Of a stretch of 64,000 bases of DNA, positions 15,722 through 25,356 are shown piece by piece (positions within the stretch are counted from its first letter, which is position 1; every line of letters starts with the position of its first letter). The notes below the pieces were generated by a model. The model saw only the letters and a program-made list of their open reading frames with translations. It was not told the DNA's origin and did not search any database. The stretch is from Leptolinea sp. Its GTDB lineage: Bacteria; Chloroflexota; Anaerolineae; Anaerolineales; Anaerolineaceae. Made by a program: the position numbers and the translations under genes. The stretch is from contig JAAZMZ010000023.1 of the NCBI GenBank assembly GCA_012798535.1, positions 62,001-126,000 of the forward strand, written 5' to 3'.

Positions 15722-16609
15722 TTAAGAAATGACTATTAAATACGCATACAGTGTGTCTCCGACTCTTTGAAGACTTGTCACGCTGACGTTTTCAATATCA
15801 TCAAATATCGTATGCCAGTTTGGATCAATAATATCAATTAAATCGACAGATGGCACACCTGCTTCTAAAAATGGGACATGGTCATCGATGATGCTGTACG
15901 TAGAAGGATTTAGAAAATGATCATCATACTCAAATTGATCTGCCGTGGATTGGATCTGTTGATAGATGAATTGATCCGAATTTGAAGGGGGCTGGATGGT
16001 TTGGTTGTAGCCTCCCACCATATCCAACAAGATCAATAGCTCAGGATGATAACTTTCCTGCCGTGAGAATTCTCTGCTGCCAAGTATCCAATCCCAGCCG
16101 GGAATATCTCCCTGATCTTCGATATCAAAAAATAACAATCCGATATTTGAGGATTGTGCATCAGTCAGTACACGGGACAATTCAAGCAGCACGACGGTGC
16201 TGGAACCGCCGTCGTTGGCTCCCGGTACTGGTAAATAACGCCTGTCAGGATCTGGATCACGATCAGCATGCATTCTGGAGTCATAATGTGATGCCAGAAG
16301 AATTTTTGGCTGGCCATTACCTCTTGTTGCGAGAATGTTGATACAGGGATGGCCTTCAACAATCCCTGGAAGCTGTTGGACGATCCAGCCGTTCTTGATC
16401 AACTGATGAGTAATAAAACCTACAGCCTGAGAATGACTCTCAGTACTGGGAACTCTTGCACCTGATCCTTGCAACCTGACAAGAAGAGAAAAAGCCCGCT
16501 GTCCATCGAACGCAGTTTTTCTTAAAAAGGTTTTCGCAAAACATATCAATAGAAGGAGGCATATAAAAATAAGACTGAGTTTCTCGAAAATCCTGGTTTT
16601 TTGATTCAT
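15722..16609 (-). CDS. M28 family peptidase, glutaminyl-cyclase-like, membrane-anchored
   Basis: Zinc-dependent M28 protein (295 aa). A single hydrophobic helix near residues 10-29 (LSLIFICLLLLICFAKTFL) suggests export with an N-terminal anchor. Metal-site motifs are ASHYDSRMH (His), PGANDGGSSTVVLLEL (bridging Asp), FFDIEDQGD (acidic pair) and DDHVPFLEAGVPSVDLID (late His). The last motif and the DWILGSREF segment resemble glutaminyl-peptide cyclotransferases more than aminopeptidases. In glutaminyl cyclases the acidic pair is usually Glu-Glu and here it is Glu-Asp. It overlaps the trmFO stop by 4 bases. Cyclase against peptidase activity is not settled. Confidence 0.75.
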   Translation of the reverse strand: MNQKTRIFEKLSLIFICLLLLICFAKTFLRKTAFDGQRAFSLLVRLQGSGARVPSTESHSQAVGFITHQLIKNGWIVQQLPGIVEGHPCINILATRGNGQPKILLASHYDSRMHADRDPDPDRRYLPVPGANDGGSSTVVLLELSRVLTDAQSSNIGLLFFDIEDQGDIPGWDWILGSREFSRQESYHPELLILLDMVGGYNQTIQPPSNSDQFIYQQIQSTADQFEYDDHFLNPSTYSIIDDHVPFLEAGVPSVDLIDIIDPNWHTIFDDIENVSVTSLQRVGDTLYAYLIVIS

Positions 16610-17967
16610 TTGGTTTTAATTAAATCCATGTTCTCATTCAGGAAATCGTCCATTGCGCGTATGGCCGTCTGAATATGCCTGGCAGCTCTCTCCTGACGAA
16701 TGACAAACCGGTTCTCCAGTTCGGGAAGAATTCCAAAGCTGGCTTTTATGGGTTGAAATCTCTCGGCAGGAGTCTCCGTAATATAACGATATAACGCACC
16801 GATCATGGTTGCAGAAGGAAAGATAAGCATCTTCCGGCCGGATATAAAATTGGCTGCATTTATTCCCGCCAATAGGCCGGATGCAATATTCCCCAGATAA
16901 CCTTCAATACCGGTGATTTGTCCGGCAAGAAACAGATCTGAGCGTGTCTTTGTTTGAGATGTGGTTTGAAGAAGAGATGGAGAGGAAATATATGTGTTTC
17001 GGTGCATTTGCCCAAAGCGAGAAAACTCTGCACCCGCCAAACCTGGAACCATGCGAAAGACAAGTTTTTGAGAGGGAATCGTCAGGTTGGTTTGAAATCC
17101 CACCATATTGTAAAGTGAACCGGAATGATTATCCTGACGAAGCTGTAAAACCGCATACGGCCGCTGTCCAGTTCGGGAATCCATCAACCCAATTGGGCGC
17201 ATCGGACCAAAGCAAAGCGATTGATGCCCCCGGGCAGCGATCACTTCAACAGGCAGGCAGCCTTCAAAGAATTTGCCTTTTCCGGCATTAACACCGGTGT
17301 GGATTTCATTTTCAAAATTTTGCAATGGAGTGCGTTCTGCCGATATCAATGCATCGACAAAACAATCATATTCCTCTTTTGTGAACGGACAATTTATATA
17401 ATCAGACGAATGCCCTTTTTCCGCCTCAAAACGAGATGCATAGAAGGCCACCGAAAAATCAATGCTCTCTTTATAGATTATTGGAGCAACAGCATCATAG
17501 AAAAAGAGGTTATTCTTTCCCGAAAACCGGATCAAAGCATCTGAAAGGCCTGGAGAGGTGAGCGGCCCGGAGGCTATGATCGTCGGTGAATCCGGAATTT
17601 CTCTGATTTCTTTTCGGATAACACGAATTTTTGGATGGTTAAGAATGACCTGTTCGACACTGGCAGAAAATAAATCCCGATCAACGGAAAGGGAACTGCC
17701 TGATGGTACACATGTTTCCAGAGCAATTCGCACGAGTAATGAGTTTAATCTGCTCAATTCGGCAAATAACAAACCCGTAGCTCTATCCGGCAAACGGGAG
17801 CCCAGAGAATTGGAACAGACCAGTTCCGCCAGCCGCGAAGAGATATGCGCTGGTGAAGTAACTTTCGGGCGCATTTCGTATAGCACCACATCGATACCTC
17901 GTTCAGCTGCCTGAAAAGCCGCTTCACAGCCTGCTAACCCGCCTCCAATTATGATCAATTCTGCCAT
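16606..17967 (-). CDS. trmFO: FADH2/folate-dependent tRNA (uracil-54-C5)-methyltransferase
   Basis: Flavoprotein that methylates U54 of tRNA with methylenetetrahydrofolate. The N-terminal dinucleotide-binding motif is IIGGGLAGCEAAFQAAERG, followed by VVLYEMRPKVTSPAH. The conserved ELVCSNSLGS and AGQITGIEGYLGNIASGLL segments are present. The ORF track begins at 18024. I choose the ATG at 17967 (MAELIIIGGG, 453 aa), because the family begins there and the earlier start would run into the divergent rpoN sigma54 promoter. The product is a bacterial alternative to SAM-dependent TrmA and is typical of Firmicutes, Chloroflexota and similar groups. Confidence 0.93.
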   Translation of the reverse strand: MAELIIIGGGLAGCEAAFQAAERGIDVVLYEMRPKVTSPAHISSRLAELVCSNSLGSRLPDRATGLLFAELSRLNSLLVRIALETCVPSGSSLSVDRDLFSASVEQVILNHPKIRVIRKEIREIPDSPTIIASGPLTSPGLSDALIRFSGKNNLFFYDAVAPIIYKESIDFSVAFYASRFEAEKGHSSDYINCPFTKEEYDCFVDALISAERTPLQNFENEIHTGVNAGKGKFFEGCLPVEVIAARGHQSLCFGPMRPIGLMDSRTGQRPYAVLQLRQDNHSGSLYNMVGFQTNLTIPSQKLVFRMVPGLAGAEFSRFGQMHRNTYISSPSLLQTTSQTKTRSDLFLAGQITGIEGYLGNIASGLLAGINAANFISGRKMLIFPSATMIGALYRYITETPAERFQPIKASFGILPELENRFVIRQERAARHIQTAIRAMDDFLNENMDLIKTK

Positions 17968-18007
17968 GTGCTGAGTTTCCCTGATGCTGATTTTACTTGA
18001 AAAAGTT

Positions 18008-18023
18008 TGGCACAGAACTTGCA
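18008..18023 (+). promoter_or_regulatory. Sigma54 (-24/-12) promoter upstream of rpoN
   Basis: TGGCAC-AGAAC-TTGCA places GG (18009-18010) and GC (18021-18022) exactly 10 bases apart, matching the sigma54 consensus at almost every position. The predicted start is near 18034, 35 bases before the preferred rpoN ATG. This implies that sigma54 drives its own gene. Confidence 0.85.
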
Positions 18024-18068
18024 CTTATAAACCTTAACGGATATACTGATCGGAAGGTTAGGGATGCT

Positions 18069-19478
18069 ATGTTTCAAACACACCAACAATCTCTTCGACC
18101 ATTAACGACGGCGCATCTCGCCCAGACCATGACTCTTTTGAGTCTTACGGCGGATGAACTAAGGGAACAGATTGAATCAGAATTGGCGTCAAATCCGGCG
18201 CTGGAATTACTAGAAGAACGCCGCTGTCCAACCTGTCACCGCCTGCTTCCTCCCAGAGGTGCCTGTCCAACCTGTAGTTCACCAAAATCAGAAGAAATCG
18301 AAGAACCGATTGTATTTGTTTCACCAAGAGAAGATTTTAACTTCAGTGGCGGAATGACCGGTGAGGATATGCCTGAGGATAATTATTCCTCAACAGTTGA
18401 AGACCTTCCTACATTTGTTCTGCGACAGATCGCCTCTGAATTGGATAATTCGGAACGAACCATAGCGGCGTACTTTCTCACACATCTGGATGATGATGGA
18501 TTATTGACGATTCCACTGATAGAAATCGCACGTTATTTCCATGTACCACTTTCAAAAGTGGAAGAAATACAGAAGAAAATCCAGAGAGCCGAACCCTACG
18601 GAGTAGGTTCCTGCTCACCCCAGGAAGCTTTACTGGCACAACTCGATCTTCTTGAAGAAAGTCGTGAAATACCTCCTCTGGCACGCTCTATCATCGAAAA
18701 GGAAATGAGTTTGCTATCGCGTCATCAATACGCCGAACTGGCAAGGGCATTCAAGGTTAGTTTGCGAACAATTCATCAAACTGTAGCTTTCATCACCGAA
18801 AACCTTAATCCATTCCCGGCCAGATCGCACTGGGGTGATATGCGGCAATCTACGGAGATGCCTCCACAGGTTTACCATCGTCCAGATATTTTGATGAGTT
18901 TTCTCAATGATGATCCATCAAAACCACTGGTAATAGAAATTATCATGCCTTTAAATGGTACTTTACGAGTAAATCCGATGTTCAGATCTGCGATCCATGA
19001 AGCCGACCAGGACAAGAAAGATGATTGGAAAAATGATCTTGAGCGGGCTTCTTTGTTTGTTAAATGTTTGCAGCAACGAAATCATACAATTACACGATTA
19101 ATGCATCGGGTGGCTGCGTTACAACGCAATTTCATCTGCAGAGGCGAGAAATATCTTAAACCTGTAACCCGAGCCCAGTTATCCACAGAATTAGGTGTGC
19201 ATGAATCAACAATTTCACGCGCCGTCGCCAACAAAGCCGTTCAATTACCCAATGGTCGGATCATCCCTCTGGCAATGTTTTTTGACCGCTCATTGAATGT
19301 AAGACAGGTTTTAAAGGAAATCATTGAGAAAGAAGCTCATTCACTTAGCGACACTGAGATTTCTGAGTTATTATCAGAACAGGGCTATCAAGTCGCACGG
19401 AGAACTGTAGCCAAGTATCGAGCGATGGAAGGAATCTTGCCCGCACACCTAAGGAGACCTGCACCCGGCGTGGGATGA
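18069..19478 (+). CDS. rpoN: RNA polymerase sigma-54 factor with inserted zinc-ribbon-like motif
   Basis: Alternative sigma factor (469 aa from this start) that needs an AAA+ activator for open-complex formation. Region I is seen as LRPLTTAHLAQTMTLLSLTADELREQIE. The core-binding domain follows, then the HTH (STELGVHESTISRAVANKAV) and the RpoN box VARRTVAKYR near the C-terminus. The ORF track starts at 17997. I reject that start because it would contain the sigma54 promoter; the ATG at 18069 follows GGAAGG/AGGG and begins close to region I. Odd feature: two CxxC pairs (RRCPTCHRLLPPRGACPTC, residues about 51-69) are inserted just after region I. It is the first gene of an rpoN-kinase-activator operon. 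Confidence 0.93.
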   Translation: MFQTHQQSLRPLTTAHLAQTMTLLSLTADELREQIESELASNPALELLEERRCPTCHRLLPPRGACPTCSSPKSEEIEEPIVFVSPREDFNFSGGMTGEDMPEDNYSSTVEDLPTFVLRQIASELDNSERTIAAYFLTHLDDDGLLTIPLIEIARYFHVPLSKVEEIQKKIQRAEPYGVGSCSPQEALLAQLDLLEESREIPPLARSIIEKEMSLLSRHQYAELARAFKVSLRTIHQTVAFITENLNPFPARSHWGDMRQSTEMPPQVYHRPDILMSFLNDDPSKPLVIEIIMPLNGTLRVNPMFRSAIHEADQDKKDDWKNDLERASLFVKCLQQRNHTITRLMHRVAALQRNFICRGEKYLKPVTRAQLSTELGVHESTISRAVANKAVQLPNGRIIPLAMFFDRSLNVRQVLKEIIEKEAHSLSDTEISELLSEQGYQVARRTVAKYRAMEGILPAHLRRPAPGVG

Positions 19479-21421
19479 GTGATGCCAATTTCAACAATCC
19501 GTTAAATCCTGCGATCAGTCGTTTACGAATTCCAGGCATTCAAGAATTTTCATTTTTATTGAATGCCTTCAGTGAAGCGGCGATAGTTTTGGATTTAAGG
19601 ACTTTATTTATCTATCAATCAAACCCGGCTTTTATTCAACTTACGGCTTTTTCACAAATTGAATTGGCCGGATTATCCGTGGTAGATATTCTCCCTGATT
19701 TCTCACAGGAATTCTTTATTTCCGGAGAACCACTAACCGCCAGCCTGATGCGCCGGAAGAGAAATCCGATCCCGGTGATCGTTCAGGGTACAATTTTGAA
19801 TGCAGAGAGAACCTGGGGGTTATTGACTTTTATTCCCGAGGCAAAACACGCCGAATCGCAGGGCGCCTGGCAATCCGACCTGTTCTCAGGATTAATGGAT
19901 CTGGCGACAATACGCGAAGAACCGGATCTTGAAAAGTCGTTACTGAAAGGTTTTGGGATAACGAAACTGATCACCCGGGCTAAGAAGATCTGTATCTACA
20001 AAGCTGACAGCCAGCAACCTCGCCTAATCCGTATCTCTTTCGACAAACAATCCGAGATATTTCCTGAAATATTGCCATCAAGTGACCTTGTTCAGCTATC
20101 CACAGCCTCCATGTGGATTCCAGGCAGGAAAGTGGTTGCAGAGGTACAGCGCGCAGCCCTAGTTGCCAATCTCAGCTACGTGGCAACCATCCCGCTGGGA
20201 CAGAAAAATGCCCTGTTCGGATTACTTGTTGTGGGTGATCAGGAAGGCCAACCGTCTGAACGGCTGGAAAATATTCTATATGTCCTTTCTGCTCACCTGA
20301 CGGCGGCATTACAGCATTTTATTCTGATCGATAATCTCCGCAAAGAAGTGCAAAACCAAAAACTGACAGCGGATATTCGTGGAACAGTTTTTGAACACAG
20401 CCAGGAAGGCATCCTTTTCATTTCACGTGAATTGCATATTCTCGAAATCAATCCCGCTGCCGAATGGATGCTGCAGTACGCCGCCTGGGAAGTGAAAAAT
20501 CAACCGGTGGCAAACGTGATAATTGGACCAGATCGGATGATGACCGTACTAGAATCATGCTTACAAGGTATACCCACGCATAATATGGGTAATGTATCCG
20601 TGCACCGGCGAAACGGGCAATCGTTCCCGGCGCATATCCAGGTCATTCCGGTGATGAAAGAAAAGGAACTAATCGGAATTGTTATGTTCATCCGGGATAT
20701 CAGCGAACATGAACAGATACGTCTGCGCAGCCAGCAGCTGGAACAACGGGCACTACTGGGAGAATTCACAGCGATCTTTGCCCACGAGGTACGTAATCCA
20801 ATCAACAATATTTCCACAGGGCTGCAGTTGATTTCCGCTCGCTTGCCGGAAGAAGATGTCAATCTGGATGTTTTGAATCGTATGCTCGGCGATTGCACAC
20901 GGTTGGATCATTTGATGGAATCCATTCTCGCTTTTTCGAAACCGCAGGAATTACGGCTCGAAAAAATCGAGATCGATAAATTTCTACAACGGATCCTTGA
21001 CCGGTGGCGTCCCAGATTGGCCCGGGTAAACGTGCAACCGTTCTTTTCGGCTGCGCAGGATCTGCCATCGATCAATGGAGATCCAAGAGCTTTGGAACAG
21101 GTTTTTACTAATCTCATTTCCAATGCCATTGATGCTATGAGCCAAAATGGCGGCACATTGGCTGTTCATGTCAATCCGGATCATTCATTACCTAACCGGC
21201 CGCAGGTTGAGGTAAGCGTATCGGATAATGGCCCTGGAATTCCCGATGAAATAAAAGAGAGGATGTTCGAACCGTTCGTGACGACAAAATCACACGGTAC
21301 CGGTCTCGGATTGGCCATTACAAAAAGGATAATAACTGCCCATCAGGGAAATATCACGGTAAAATCCTTCCCGGGGGGAACTATTTTCCACGTTTATTTA
21401 CCTGCCAGCAGCGGAGAATGA
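19475..21421 (+). CDS. Soluble PAS/GAF sensor histidine kinase (NtrB-like)
   Basis: Two-component sensor kinase (648 aa) with no membrane helix, so it reads a cytoplasmic signal. Domain order: PAS at about 25-120 ([20 protein letters not shown]), GAF-like at about 130-290, a second PAS at about 305-415 ([20 protein letters not shown]), HisKA with phospho-acceptor His437 in [12 protein letters not shown], and HATPase_c with [18 protein letters not shown] and [16 protein letters not shown]. It overlaps rpoN by 4 bases (ATGA) and is followed 3 bases later by its presumed partner. The NtrB-like layout and the sigma54 context make it the likely controller of the activator. The ligand is unknown. 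Confidence 0.9.
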
Positions 21422-21424
21422 AGA

Positions 21425-22594
21425 ATGAGCACAAACGTTTTAATTGTCGATGATGAAGAGAACGCGAGAAGGAATATCGGTGAATATCTTTCTGCAAAAG
21501 GCTATGAGGTAACCGGCGCCGGCACTTTGAAAGAAGCACGGGATATGATCATGAATGGAGTGGGGGATGTCATTCTGCTGGACGTTCAATTGCCTGATGG
21601 ATATGGTCCTAATCTGTTATATGAGGTAGATTCACTACCGGCGAGACCGCCGATCATTGTGATCACGGGGTATGGTGATATCGAAACGGCTGTGGATGCC
21701 ATGAAAAATGGTGCACATGATTTTCTAACAAAACCTGTGAATATGTCTCAATTGGAACAGTCCATCCTCAGAGCGCAGGAGATAGTCTCCATGCGTCGAG
21801 AGCTGGCTTATCTGCGGCAGAAACAGAAGAATATAGATTTTGTTGTAGGAAATAATCCAAAAGTCAAAACAGTCATTGAACATGCTCACCGGGCTGCACA
21901 GGCTTCCGTTTCTGTTCTGATCACAGGAGAGACGGGCACTGGAAAAGAAGTGTTGGCGCAATTCATCCATAAATCTGGACCTCGTGCGAACAAGCAGTTT
22001 GTTGCCATCAATTGCGCTGCCATCCAACCCACCGTGCTTGAATCTGAATTGTTCGGTTACGAAAAAGGCGCGTTCACAGGCGCGGATGTAAGGAAACACG
22101 GTCTGATGGAAATAGCTGACGGGGGTGTATTGTTCCTGGATGAAATATCAAAGATGCCACTGGAGATCCAATCAAAACTGCTGCGAGCTGTAGAAGATAA
22201 AGCCATTCGCCGGGTTGGAGGAACGACAACGAACAAGGTGGATATTCAGGTAATATCGGCGTCTAATCGAGACCTATTAAAAATGATGAAGGATGGGGAG
22301 TTCAGAGAAGATCTGTATTACAGGCTAAAAGTTGTCGATCTTGATCTTCCGCCATTGCGTGAGAGAAAAGAAGATATTCCTGAACTCGTCGGTTTTTTCA
22401 TGAGAGAGCAAAACGCACGGCAAGGCTTGAATATCACCGATATAACTCCAAGAGCCATGCAGGCATTGATGGCATACGATTGGCCGGGTAACATTCGCGA
22501 GCTTAATCACGATATTGAACGCGCCATGTTATTTTGTGATGATCCGGTATTAGATATCAACCATCTGCCTTTGGATCTTCAAACAGTAAAATAA
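21425..22594 (+). CDS. Sigma54-dependent response regulator lacking a DNA-binding domain
   Basis: NtrC-family activator (389 aa). The receiver domain spans about 1-120 with phospho-acceptor Asp53 in VILLDVQLPDG and the TKPVNMS segment. The AAA+ domain spans about 140-375, with Walker A GETGTGKE at 168-175, the sigma54-contacting GAFTGA at 215-220, and the arginine-finger region FREDLYYRLKV. Family members usually run to 450-480 residues and end in a Fis-type HTH. This one stops right after the AAA+ lid at LPLDLQTVK, and the next bases are a sigma54 promoter, so no HTH is encoded. DNA-binding-free activators such as Helicobacter FlgR are known. Confidence 0.92.
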   Translation: MSTNVLIVDDEENARRNIGEYLSAKGYEVTGAGTLKEARDMIMNGVGDVILLDVQLPDGYGPNLLYEVDSLPARPPIIVITGYGDIETAVDAMKNGAHDFLTKPVNMSQLEQSILRAQEIVSMRRELAYLRQKQKNIDFVVGNNPKVKTVIEHAHRAAQASVSVLITGETGTGKEVLAQFIHKSGPRANKQFVAINCAAIQPTVLESELFGYEKGAFTGADVRKHGLMEIADGGVLFLDEISKMPLEIQSKLLRAVEDKAIRRVGGTTTNKVDIQVISASNRDLLKMMKDGEFREDLYYRLKVVDLDLPPLRERKEDIPELVGFFMREQNARQGLNITDITPRAMQALMAYDWPGNIRELNHDIERAMLFCDDPVLDINHLPLDLQTVK

Positions 22595-22600
22595 AATCCG

Positions 22601-22616
22601 TGGCATGTAAATTGCA
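22601..22616 (+). promoter_or_regulatory. Sigma54 promoter of the mini-protein/TPR/C25 operon
   Basis: TGGCAT-GTAAA-TTGCA has GG (22602-22603) and GC (22614-22615) 10 bases apart. The predicted start is near 22627, giving a 26-base leader with a free AGGAGG before the ATG at 22653. It lies only 7 bases past the activator's stop codon. Confidence 0.85.
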
Positions 22617-22652
22617 ACAATCCTCCTGTAGATAGTATTCAGGAGGATTGTT
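22616..22652 (+). repeat. 13-bp perfect inverted repeat hiding the ribosome-binding site
   Basis: AACAATCCTCCTG (22616-22628) and CAGGAGGATTGTT (22640-22652) are exact reverse complements with an 11-base loop. The right arm carries the Shine-Dalgarno AGGAGG of the next gene. A transcript reading through from rpoN-kinase-activator would fold it shut. A transcript from the sigma54 promoter starts at the end of the left arm and would not. It could alternatively be a DNA operator. Confidence 0.8.
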
Positions 22653-22973
22653 ATGTCCATATTCTCTGTCAATGATATTTTCCTGGCGATGGCAGTTTTC
22701 CTTTTCATCATCGGGATTTTTTCGATTGCATCAGGGATTTTTGTGCTGGTAGCCAAAATCGCGGGCGGTGATCTGCGAACGATTGCAAGGCAGACAACAG
22801 CTCTAGCCCAAAAAGGATTAACAGAGGAGATCAGCGGTCTGGTGGGGAATGCCACGGCATTAATCGTGGCGATCAATGATCTGGTTAAAACGGCCTCAGG
22901 AATAGGTGTGTTTCTCATCATGGTGGGAATTGTTGCGATCGGAGTCGCTCTTGGAATTCTTACCCAGCTATAA
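22653..22973 (+). CDS. Two-helix small membrane protein, unknown function
   Basis: 106-aa protein that I cannot place in a family. Two membrane helices are visible, at about 6-38 (IFLAMAVFLFIIGIFSIAS and following) and about 82-104 (GIGVFLIMVGIVAIGVALGIL). Between them lies an amphipathic stretch rich in Ala, Thr and Leu (residues 40-75, ARQTTALAQKGLTEEISGLV). It has an excellent AGGAGG start site. It is first in the sigma54-driven operon with the TPR protein and C25-like peptidase, so it may recruit or anchor that module at the membrane; this is inference. Confidence 0.75.
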   Translation: MSIFSVNDIFLAMAVFLFIIGIFSIASGIFVLVAKIAGGDLRTIARQTTALAQKGLTEEISGLVGNATALIVAINDLVKTASGIGVFLIMVGIVAIGVALGILTQL

Positions 22974-23001
22974 ATAATTCTCTGAAGATAACGGAGATAA
23001 C

Positions 23002-25356
23002 ATGCAACCTGCGGATTTGGTTACGAAGATTAACCGTATATTTGGTGAAGAAGATGCTGCTTTATTGATCTCGGCTCTACGACAAGATGCGCTGGTTTGG
23101 AATGCCATTCAAGATGAAACCCTGGCGGTGGGTTTAACGCAAGAATCAAAAGCACGATTGAATGAGTGGACTCCCGCGGCGATATTTTGTCTGTCTGAGA
23201 ATATCCCGTCACCGGCTGATTTAAAGAATCTGAGCCTGGGACTAGATGGAAATATCCGTCAGTTATCCATACAAAACTATGAGACTGTTTGCCGTGGAAA
23301 TAAACCTCCAAAAGATTTGAAACAGGCAGGCTATGCCGCCCTGGCATTACGTGAGCGGCGAAAGCTGGTAAAAAGCTGGGATGGCTTGGCTGAAGAAATG
23401 GAATCCAATCAGGCAATATCCGAGCAGGAAGTCATCAGTGTATGGGGCACTGTGATTTCAATTCTGGCTGGCATCATTTCCGATGAAAATGGACTGTTCG
23501 AGGAAATTCTTGGATTACCGGGTAAAGTAGGCAGAGAACTTGTGAGCCATGCGATATTGTCACTACCGGTTTCGTTGAAAGAAAAGATCAATGTACTATC
23601 CGGCCTGATGATCAAACTTGATCTGGCAGGTCAAATCGACTGGCTGCAAGCCCTGGCTTTACGGGGTGAAATTCGATTAAGCGAGCAATTGGCAAAATTG
23701 CTGATTGCCAATTCCGCATCCAATCTGTTAAATGGATTTCTGGCAACTGAATTATCCTCTTTGGATTTACCCCAGGTCGCAGCGAAAGCTGTACGACTGC
23801 AACAGGCTGCGACGCTGTATCAACTTGCCGGTAAAGAAATTGAAGCCAATCGATTTCTTAATTCTGCGGCAGATACAATCTCTTACCTCAACACGGGTAT
23901 TCGACTGCAGCAGGCCGGAATACAAAATGTTCTTCCGGAAAAAGAGGGAACAGGGAAAAGAGTATCCGGAGAAGAAATCACTGATAACGTAGCCGGATTG
24001 CAGGGAGAATTGTTACTGGCTGCGGCTGCCGGGAGCAGTAGAATTTCGTCAAAAGGTCTGCCGGGAAAATTCGGCAGATGTTTTCAAGAACTACGAGAAG
24101 CGGGAAAACTTGTCCTATCAGGGGAGTTGGATCGCGCCAGGGGACTGGCGTACCCGGCAATCGAAGCCTTTATGCAATTCATATCTTCGGCAAATTCAAA
24201 CTACAGTCCGAAGTTCCTGATCAATTGGCAGCCGGAAGAATTTGTTGAACTACTGGTTAATTTGAATTACCTGAAAGAAGCGGCTGTGGCGGCAGAGTGG
24301 TTCTTGCGTTATCAACCAACAAATGCTAGATTGCTGGGATTGCTCGGGGATCTTTTCACACGAGAAAATCAGCCGGAGCGGGCAGCAAAATCACTATCTC
24401 TGGCCGTTTCGTTAAATCCGAACGATTCATCGAATCGAAGACTACTGGCAAGGCTGCATGAAACAAACGGAAATTATTCCGGAGCCATGGATGAGTGGAA
24501 GAGGATTGTTGATGTAACCGAGAATTCAAATATCGATGATCAGATGAATCTGGCAAAAACCGCTTATCGCGCTGAAGAGTATAAACAAACCTTCAACATC
24601 TGCAAAACGATTCTGGAGAAAGATCCATTCCACGGGCTGGCCTGTTCCTACTTAGGCCAATCGGCCGCCGTACTGGGTGATGATCAGACGGCAAATGAAT
24701 TCCTGCAAAAATCGGTACTACTGGCACCTGACTCCAGCGAAGTCTGGCTGGCATTATCCCGCTATCAAAAACAAAAAGGTGAATTACAGAAGGCTTACGA
24801 GACTTTACGTTCTGCGTCTGCGTCTTTGCCCGATTCTTCAGAAATCAATCTGGAACTGGCATTAATGAGCATGGAGACTGGCAGACCATCAGAAGCGTTG
24901 CCACATCTGAGACTGGCTGCCACGATCCAACCGGAAAATCTGGAAGTTGCCACTCTGTTGATAAATGCTCTGCTTACTCTGGGGCATCAGGAGGAAGCCA
25001 GGGAATTGTTGGGTAACATTCGGAAACGCTGGCCCGAAGATATCGATCTTGCGAAAACTCACGGTTTATTACTGCAGGATGCCGGACAATATCGGGATGC
25101 TATAGCTCCGTTACAACTCGTTAATCGAAAGAATCCGACTGACGAAGACGCCGCCGTTGGACTTTGCCTTTCACAACTCGAATCAAAACTGGACTCTCTA
25201 GTAGTGGAAGGTAAACCCAGACTAAATATAAATTTGGCAGAGATTGCCCAGATCATTTCCACATTGCTTGGCAAGAATGCCGAATCGATACGCGGACATC
25301 TCATCCTTGGCGCGCTGCAATATGCGATGGGTAATCTTGATAAAGCGTTTGATTAA
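23002..25356 (+). CDS. Giant TPR-repeat protein, N-terminal part (ends at in-frame TAA)
   Basis: 784-residue reading frame with no signal peptide or membrane helix. Residues 1-360 are helical and not recognisable. From about 390 onward tetratricopeptide repeats follow one another, for example LGDLFTRENQPERAAKSLSL, LGQSAAVLGDDQTANEFLQK and LSRYQKQKGELQKAYETLRS. The frame stops at TAA 25354-25356 in the middle of a repeat (GNLDKAFD-stop-FKAAAELS). The same frame then continues open for about another thousand codons, so this is the first part of an interrupted protein of about 1,807 residues. It is expected to act as a large protein-protein scaffold. The AACGGAGATAAC upstream serves as ribosome-binding site. 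Confidence 0.85.
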   Translation: MQPADLVTKINRIFGEEDAALLISALRQDALVWNAIQDETLAVGLTQESKARLNEWTPAAIFCLSENIPSPADLKNLSLGLDGNIRQLSIQNYETVCRGNKPPKDLKQAGYAALALRERRKLVKSWDGLAEEMESNQAISEQEVISVWGTVISILAGIISDENGLFEEILGLPGKVGRELVSHAILSLPVSLKEKINVLSGLMIKLDLAGQIDWLQALALRGEIRLSEQLAKLLIANSASNLLNGFLATELSSLDLPQVAAKAVRLQQAATLYQLAGKEIEANRFLNSAADTISYLNTGIRLQQAGIQNVLPEKEGTGKRVSGEEITDNVAGLQGELLLAAAAGSSRISSKGLPGKFGRCFQELREAGKLVLSGELDRARGLAYPAIEAFMQFISSANSNYSPKFLINWQPEEFVELLVNLNYLKEAAVAAEWFLRYQPTNARLLGLLGDLFTRENQPERAAKSLSLAVSLNPNDSSNRRLLARLHETNGNYSGAMDEWKRIVDVTENSNIDDQMNLAKTAYRAEEYKQTFNICKTILEKDPFHGLACSYLGQSAAVLGDDQTANEFLQKSVLLAPDSSEVWLALSRYQKQKGELQKAYETLRSASASLPDSSEINLELALMSMETGRPSEALPHLRLAATIQPENLEVATLLINALLTLGHQEEARELLGNIRKRWPEDIDLAKTHGLLLQDAGQYRDAIAPLQLVNRKNPTDEDAAVGLCLSQLESKLDSLVVEGKPRLNINLAEIAQIISTLLGKNAESIRGHLILGALQYAMGNLDKAFD
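25354..25356 (+). other. Single in-frame stop codon inside the TPR gene
   Basis: Frame reads GAT-TAA-TTC across the junction. Translation on both sides is continuous TPR sequence, and the TAA sits at a position where helix-B residues such as Tyr or His are common. One base change from TAT or TAC would give it. It may be a real nonsense mutation, a readthrough site or a sequencing error. Confidence 0.9.

Follow-up and report, generated by a model that had tools for sequence, protein, structure and literature searches.

The sigma-54 holoenzyme sits on its promoters as a silent closed complex until an AAA+ activator remodels that complex, and it is usually studied in bacteria where many activators share one sigma factor. 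Autoregulation of rpoN, the gene for this sigma factor, is as such already known in other bacteria, being negative in Pseudomonas and rhizobia, and positive in Rhodobacter capsulatus. A 2025 survey found sigma-54 promoters before rpoN to be enriched in Bacilli, Clostridia, Planctomycetia, Proteobacteria and others, citing Geobacter sulfurreducens and Dokdonia MED134 as documented cases, with no mention of Chloroflexota in its main text (PMC12316311). Given these enrichments in many classes, the statement in a first-pass annotation of the DNA studied here that rpoN is usually expressed constitutively is too strong (PMC12316311). In Escherichia coli, sigma-54 represses the overlapping sigma-70 promoters of argT, chaC, mdfA and patA, with competition seen in vitro using purified proteins (PMC4551910). 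CtcC of Chlamydia has been reported as a sigma-54 activator without a DNA-binding domain (PMC7482065), and in T4 the ribosome-site hairpins of I-TevI, soc and e are broken by an internal late promoter (PMC2988022). A literature search for sigma-54 in Anaerolineae gave incidental mentions only, and little seems to be known of it in these anaerobes.

In this work, we analyzed the rpoN locus in a window of 64,000 nucleotides (positions 62001-126000 of contig C45) from a Leptolinea genome of 3.5 Mb (Anaerolineaceae, Chloroflexota), and compared it with the corresponding loci of the order Anaerolineales. Our results point, with a probability that we put at about 0.68, to an overlapping dual promoter that drives an operon of rpoN, kinase and activator in Leptolinea and in the order, with occlusion between the two promoters and a conditional sign of feedback.

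Gene order and proteins of the rpoN operon

The genes are arranged in the order trmFO (divergent), rpoN, PAS histidine kinase, sigma-54 activator, small membrane protein and TPR proteins, the first five having these positions:

16606-17967, minus strand: trmFO, with its ATG at 17967 and a TIGR00137 match above the cut-off; the divergent neighbour that bounds the intergenic gap
18069-19478, plus strand: rpoN (sigma-54), 469 aa, with Pfam PF00309, PF04963 and PF04552
19475-21421, plus strand: PAS histidine kinase, AtoS/NtrB-like by profile matches, with a 4-nt overlap with the rpoN stop
21425-22594, plus strand: sigma-54 activator, 389 aa, receiver and AAA+ with GAFTGA, without a C-terminal HTH
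22653-22973, plus strand: small membrane protein, 106 aa, first gene of a predicted sigma-54-only unit

The 4-nt overlap between rpoN and the kinase gene, and the start of the activator gene 3 nt further on, make these three genes one tight unit. The small membrane protein matched no Pfam family, and its homologue adjoins the rpoN operon in most relatives. A search of positions 17900-23050 against Rfam gave no match.

The RpoN protein is 90% identical to that of Leptolinea tardivitalis and 88% to that of Leptolinea sp. HRD-7, its closest named relatives. It scores 255.7 bits against TIGR02395, under the cut-off of 277 for that model, and its RpoN box is intact (ARRTVAKYR), the box being found as RRTV/IxKYR in 48 of 48 full-length RpoNs. 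This sigma-54 and the GAFTGA activator form a functional-looking set within the same genome. Between the activator-interacting and core-binding domains lies a zinc-ribbon-like CxxC...CxxC insert (CPTCHRLLPPRGACPTC, approximately 18219-18280), which all 48 full-length homologues read also contain; it is visible as well in several RpoNs from other Chloroflexota families.

Apart from the activator, no protein of the genome matches PF00158 strongly, the other hits (about 1e-8) lying in large AAA+ proteins of ClpB size. The activator stops at residue 389, and its profile match ends at position 391 of 461 of AtoC, so that it consists of a receiver and an AAA+ domain without a C-terminal HTH, as in the CtcC type. 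In nearly all relatives read, GAFTGA is present and the HTH absent, and in most of them the protein ends 171-196 aa past GAFTGA. Lacking a DNA-binding domain, the activator presumably acts from solution and would need no upstream enhancer; in the locus comparison, no conserved block that might be an enhancer was evident just upstream of the rpoN sigma-54 element. At one locus (L110, genome G043), the activator frame runs into membrane-protein-like sequence, with 340 aa past GAFTGA where about 175 are usual; it may be a fusion with the small membrane protein.

The sigma-54 element before rpoN and a proposed overlapping sigma-A promoter

The gap between trmFO and rpoN, measured from ATG 17967 to ATG 18069, is 101 bp long and holds the following features:

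18008-18023, plus strand: sigma-54 -24/-12 element TGGCAC-N5-TTGCA (TGGCACAGAACTTGCA), exact consensus, with a predicted start at about 18034
18019-18024, plus strand: proposed sigma-A -35 TTGCAC, 17 bp from TATACT and overlapping the sigma-54 -12 element
18042-18047, plus strand: sigma-A -10 TATACT, in the same register at 26 of 48 loci, with a predicted start at about 18054

The first-pass annotation had placed TGGCAC-N5-TTGCA 46 bases before the rpoN ATG and held that it fixes the start codons of both genes. The sequence confirms the distance, counted from the end of the element, and the second claim also holds, since the longer in-frame ORFs (GTG 18024, TTG 17997) overlap the element; RpoN proteins of relatives align from M1, in agreement with ATG 18069. 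The element stands immediately 5' of rpoN, in the correct orientation and with no intervening gene. Its GG (-25/-24) and GC (-13/-12) are 10 bp apart, and G18010 to C18022 gives the correct -24 to -12 spacing. The consensus TGGCAYN5TTGCW occurs twice in the 64-kb window, at 18008 and 22601, against 0.17 expected from shuffles, and 14 times in the whole genome against 2 for the reversed control, the corresponding ratios in two other Leptolinea genomes being 11:4 and 18:1. Loose matches with 2 mismatches were at chance level (33 against 31.5) and were discarded.

Upstream regions of rpoN were compared at 49 loci of the order, with RpoN identities of 36-100%. The element was found at 48 of them, scoring between 22 of 22 weighted points at best and 19 at worst, with one or two weaker cases (L107, L070) being ambiguous, and 36 of the 49 carry the exact TGGCAYN5TTGCW. 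Positions G2, G3, A5, T12, T13, G14 and C15 of the 16-mer are the same at all 48 loci; GG, A and TTGC are thus invariant, which agrees with the earlier expectation that GG and GC would be the most conserved bases in an alignment of related genomes. Such conservation argues strongly that sigma-54 binding ahead of rpoN has been selected for. L110 is the sole rpoN locus where no convincing sigma-54 site was seen. Among Chloroflexota rpoN genes outside the order the site is patchy, being present for instance at L132, L134 and L144 and absent in many, so that no claim is made for the phylum. Upstream of the element, a motif resembling TTTTACCA occurs at 17988-17998 and in relatives, some of them genomes that lack rpoN. 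On the opposite strand, where it reads TGGTAAAA, it could serve trmFO as an extended -10.

TATACT or TATAAT lies exactly 17 bp past the hexamer TTGCAN at 26 of 48 loci, where base composition predicts 0.05. With near matches included, a -10 is present at 16-18 bp in 33 of 48, the two promoters thus overlapping with a weak -35, and a -10-like hexamer occurs anywhere in the scanned stretch at 45 of 48 (16 in shuffles). The 17-bp spacer is unconserved, which argues that its length is kept and not its sequence. By the second sigma-54 site, TATA[AC]T was found at the same register in none of 29 loci, and hence a -10 at 17 bp is not general to sigma-54 promoters here. In this genome, TTGACA-N16-18-TATAMT exceeds its reversed control by 31:1 and about one quarter of the matches have TATACT, so that this hexamer can be taken as a housekeeping -10 here. 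The -35 matches TTGACA at 3 of 6 positions (TTGCAC), or at 4 of 6 in the many relatives with TTGCAA; the sigma-A promoter could thus be a weak one, or depend on an extended -10. A sigma-70 promoter scan missed TTGCAC-17-TATACT on account of this poor -35, and conservation and spacing were used in its place. The overlap is not universal, as the -10 stands at other spacings or is not evident at about 15 of the 48 loci; where the -10 sits elsewhere (spacers of 12 and 21-32) the sigma-54 element is kept, which argues for selection on the element in its own right. Most simply read, TTGC would play two parts in an overlapping dual promoter, as the -12 of sigma-54 and as the -35 of sigma-A.

The second sigma-54 site and further sites in Leptolinea

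The other match in the window lies between the activator gene and the small membrane protein gene, next to an inverted repeat:

22601-22616, plus strand: second sigma-54 site (TGGCATGTAAATTGCA), 7 bp past the activator gene, with a predicted start at about 22627
22616-22652, plus strand: inverted repeat (AACAATCCTCCTG / CAGGAGGATTGTT), with the Shine-Dalgarno inside its 3' arm, which runs up to the ATG

This site is conserved at 29 of 42 testable loci. The repeat starts right after its -12, and the 3' arm supplies the small membrane protein gene with its Shine-Dalgarno, often extending as far as the start codon in relatives. An uninterrupted stem of at least 8 bp is present at 24 of 29 loci (mean 10.9 against 6.1 shuffled). 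Furthermore, own arms form 8.7 Watson-Crick pairs against 5.4 for arms swapped between genomes (p = 0.0002), which indicates covariation. The predicted sigma-54 start is placed where the 5' arm ends, so that the hairpin should form only in transcripts coming through from rpoN; the fold z is -4.37 for such read-through transcripts and 0.16 for those made from the predicted start. We propose that the hairpin would keep ribosomes from translating the sigma-54-only unit on transcripts that run on from the rpoN operon; alternatively, it may act by transcription termination with the same outcome, a run of T being seen past the stem in a few genomes. No hairpin was found at the rpoN sigma-54 site (stem of 5.9 bp against 6.0 shuffled).

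Exact predicted sites were also found directly before dnaN in three Leptolinea species (L003/L159/L162), before polA in two (L001/L179), and in three species each before a GH25 lysozyme gene (L153/L171/L185) and an ftsL-like gene of the dcw cluster, arranged as mraZ-rsmH-[site]-ftsL-ftsI (L004/L160/L175). A membrane protein gene is likewise preceded by predicted sites in three species, and the exact sites L002/L158/L177 belong with this set at genes for replication, division and the cell wall. Elsewhere in the family no such site precedes dnaN or polA, and these genes were rejected as order-wide sigma-54 targets, the sites being limited to Leptolinea. The predicted sites suggest a genus with sigma-54 wired to replication and division. 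Sigma-54 consensus sites within ORFs are conserved in three Leptolinea species as well (L009/L161/L170 and L008/L165/L172), one of them about 313 bp before an ORF resembling an EAL/HDOD protein. More speculatively, the whole might form a closed sigma-54 circuit, with the operon promoter as both target and roadblock, the hairpin as insulation, and replication and division genes (dnaN, polA, ftsL-ftsI) recruited in Leptolinea, a view that we hold to be possible but doubtful.

Control of rpoN and comparison with known systems

Under the dual-promoter reading, the sigma-A holoenzyme would use TTGCAC and TATACT for basal expression of rpoN, kinase and activator, and would supply what a sigma factor dependent on self-activation alone lacks. 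The sigma-54 holoenzyme bound at 18008-18023 would cover the sigma-A -35. As long as the activator is unphosphorylated, the closed complex would stay shut and block sigma-A, giving negative feedback; since sigma-54 within a sigma-70 footprint represses in E. coli (PMC4551910), repression of the sigma-A promoter is expected of the Leptolinea element whenever the activator is off. Once the kinase phosphorylates the activator, the same sigma-54 complex would fire from about 18034, with positive feedback on rpoN, kinase and activator together. Sigma-54 thus probably tunes its own production, as a brake with the activator off and an accelerator with the activator on, the sign of autoregulation probably depending, by analogy, on phosphorylation of the activator.

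The first-pass annotation had predicted positive autoactivation and, with the adjacent kinase and activator, a bistable switch. The sigma-54 site before rpoN and the presence of both partners in the same operon stand; the autoactivation and the switch are not supported in that form, as the element overlaps a conserved sigma-A promoter, and conservation is silent on the sign of autoregulation, as is sequence on bistability. A simple autoactivation, with rpoN expressed mainly by sigma-54 and its activator, a switch possible through the kinase, and TATACT either incidental or a bootstrap for the loop, would fit a perfect, invariant -24/-12 element and a sole activator within the operon, but a -10 that recurs so regularly at 17 bp can hardly be incidental, and a loop of this kind has no way of starting from zero; we regard it as unlikely. 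Somewhat less likely still is a purely negative role, in which the site would be a sigma-54 "operator" that occludes the sigma-A promoter and never fires. The overlapping geometry suits this role, as do sigma-54 repression at overlapping sigma-70 promoters and the C at -12 in all repressive motifs (PMC4551910); however, nothing obvious would prevent a full-consensus element from firing with an activator devoid of a DNA-binding domain, and a similar sequence is seen at the second site, which is purely of the sigma-54 type.

That the element is conserved for a reason other than sigma-54, either as a sigma-A -35 with an upstream protein site or as an element of trmFO, we consider very improbable, even though TTGC overlaps the -35 and trmFO diverges from the same gap. 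The GG-N10-GC spacing is invariant at the 48 loci, even with the -10 elsewhere, and the same motif precedes the neighbouring operon. Moreover, the element is absent upstream of trmFO in five of five Anaerolineales genomes without detected rpoN, which leaves a trmFO-side function unsupported.

Most of the order has a single sigma-54 and a single true activator, which are encoded side by side and seem to control their own expression. In such a minimal system, the setting of sigma-54 levels and the closed complex as a physiological repressor become testable, and the second site offers a compact way of insulating neighbouring operons. New in this locus are the conservation throughout an order of Chloroflexota, the geometry of the dual promoter and the hairpin as a proposed insulator; we found no description of a conserved sigma-A overlap at rpoN itself, of a whole system under such a promoter, or of the hairpin boundary.

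The rpoN genes of the recent survey share with Leptolinea a preceding sigma-54 promoter, implying autoregulation (PMC12316311); in Leptolinea the operon also includes the activator and the kinase, and a sigma-A promoter overlaps the site. As in the E. coli cases, a -24/-12 element lies inside the footprint of the housekeeping promoter; the promoters there belong to other genes (PMC4551910), while in Leptolinea it is rpoN itself that is targeted, in a geometry shared across the order. Chlamydia CtcB/CtcC likewise constitutes one two-component pair whose activator has no DNA-binding domain (PMC7482065), the difference being that the Leptolinea pair shares its operon with rpoN, which is preceded by a sigma-54 site. 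Finally, in T4, read-through mRNA hides the Shine-Dalgarno and a local promoter starting inside the hairpin frees it, as is predicted for the Leptolinea hairpin; in Leptolinea that local promoter would be of the sigma-54 type, on a bacterial chromosome and order-wide (PMC2988022).
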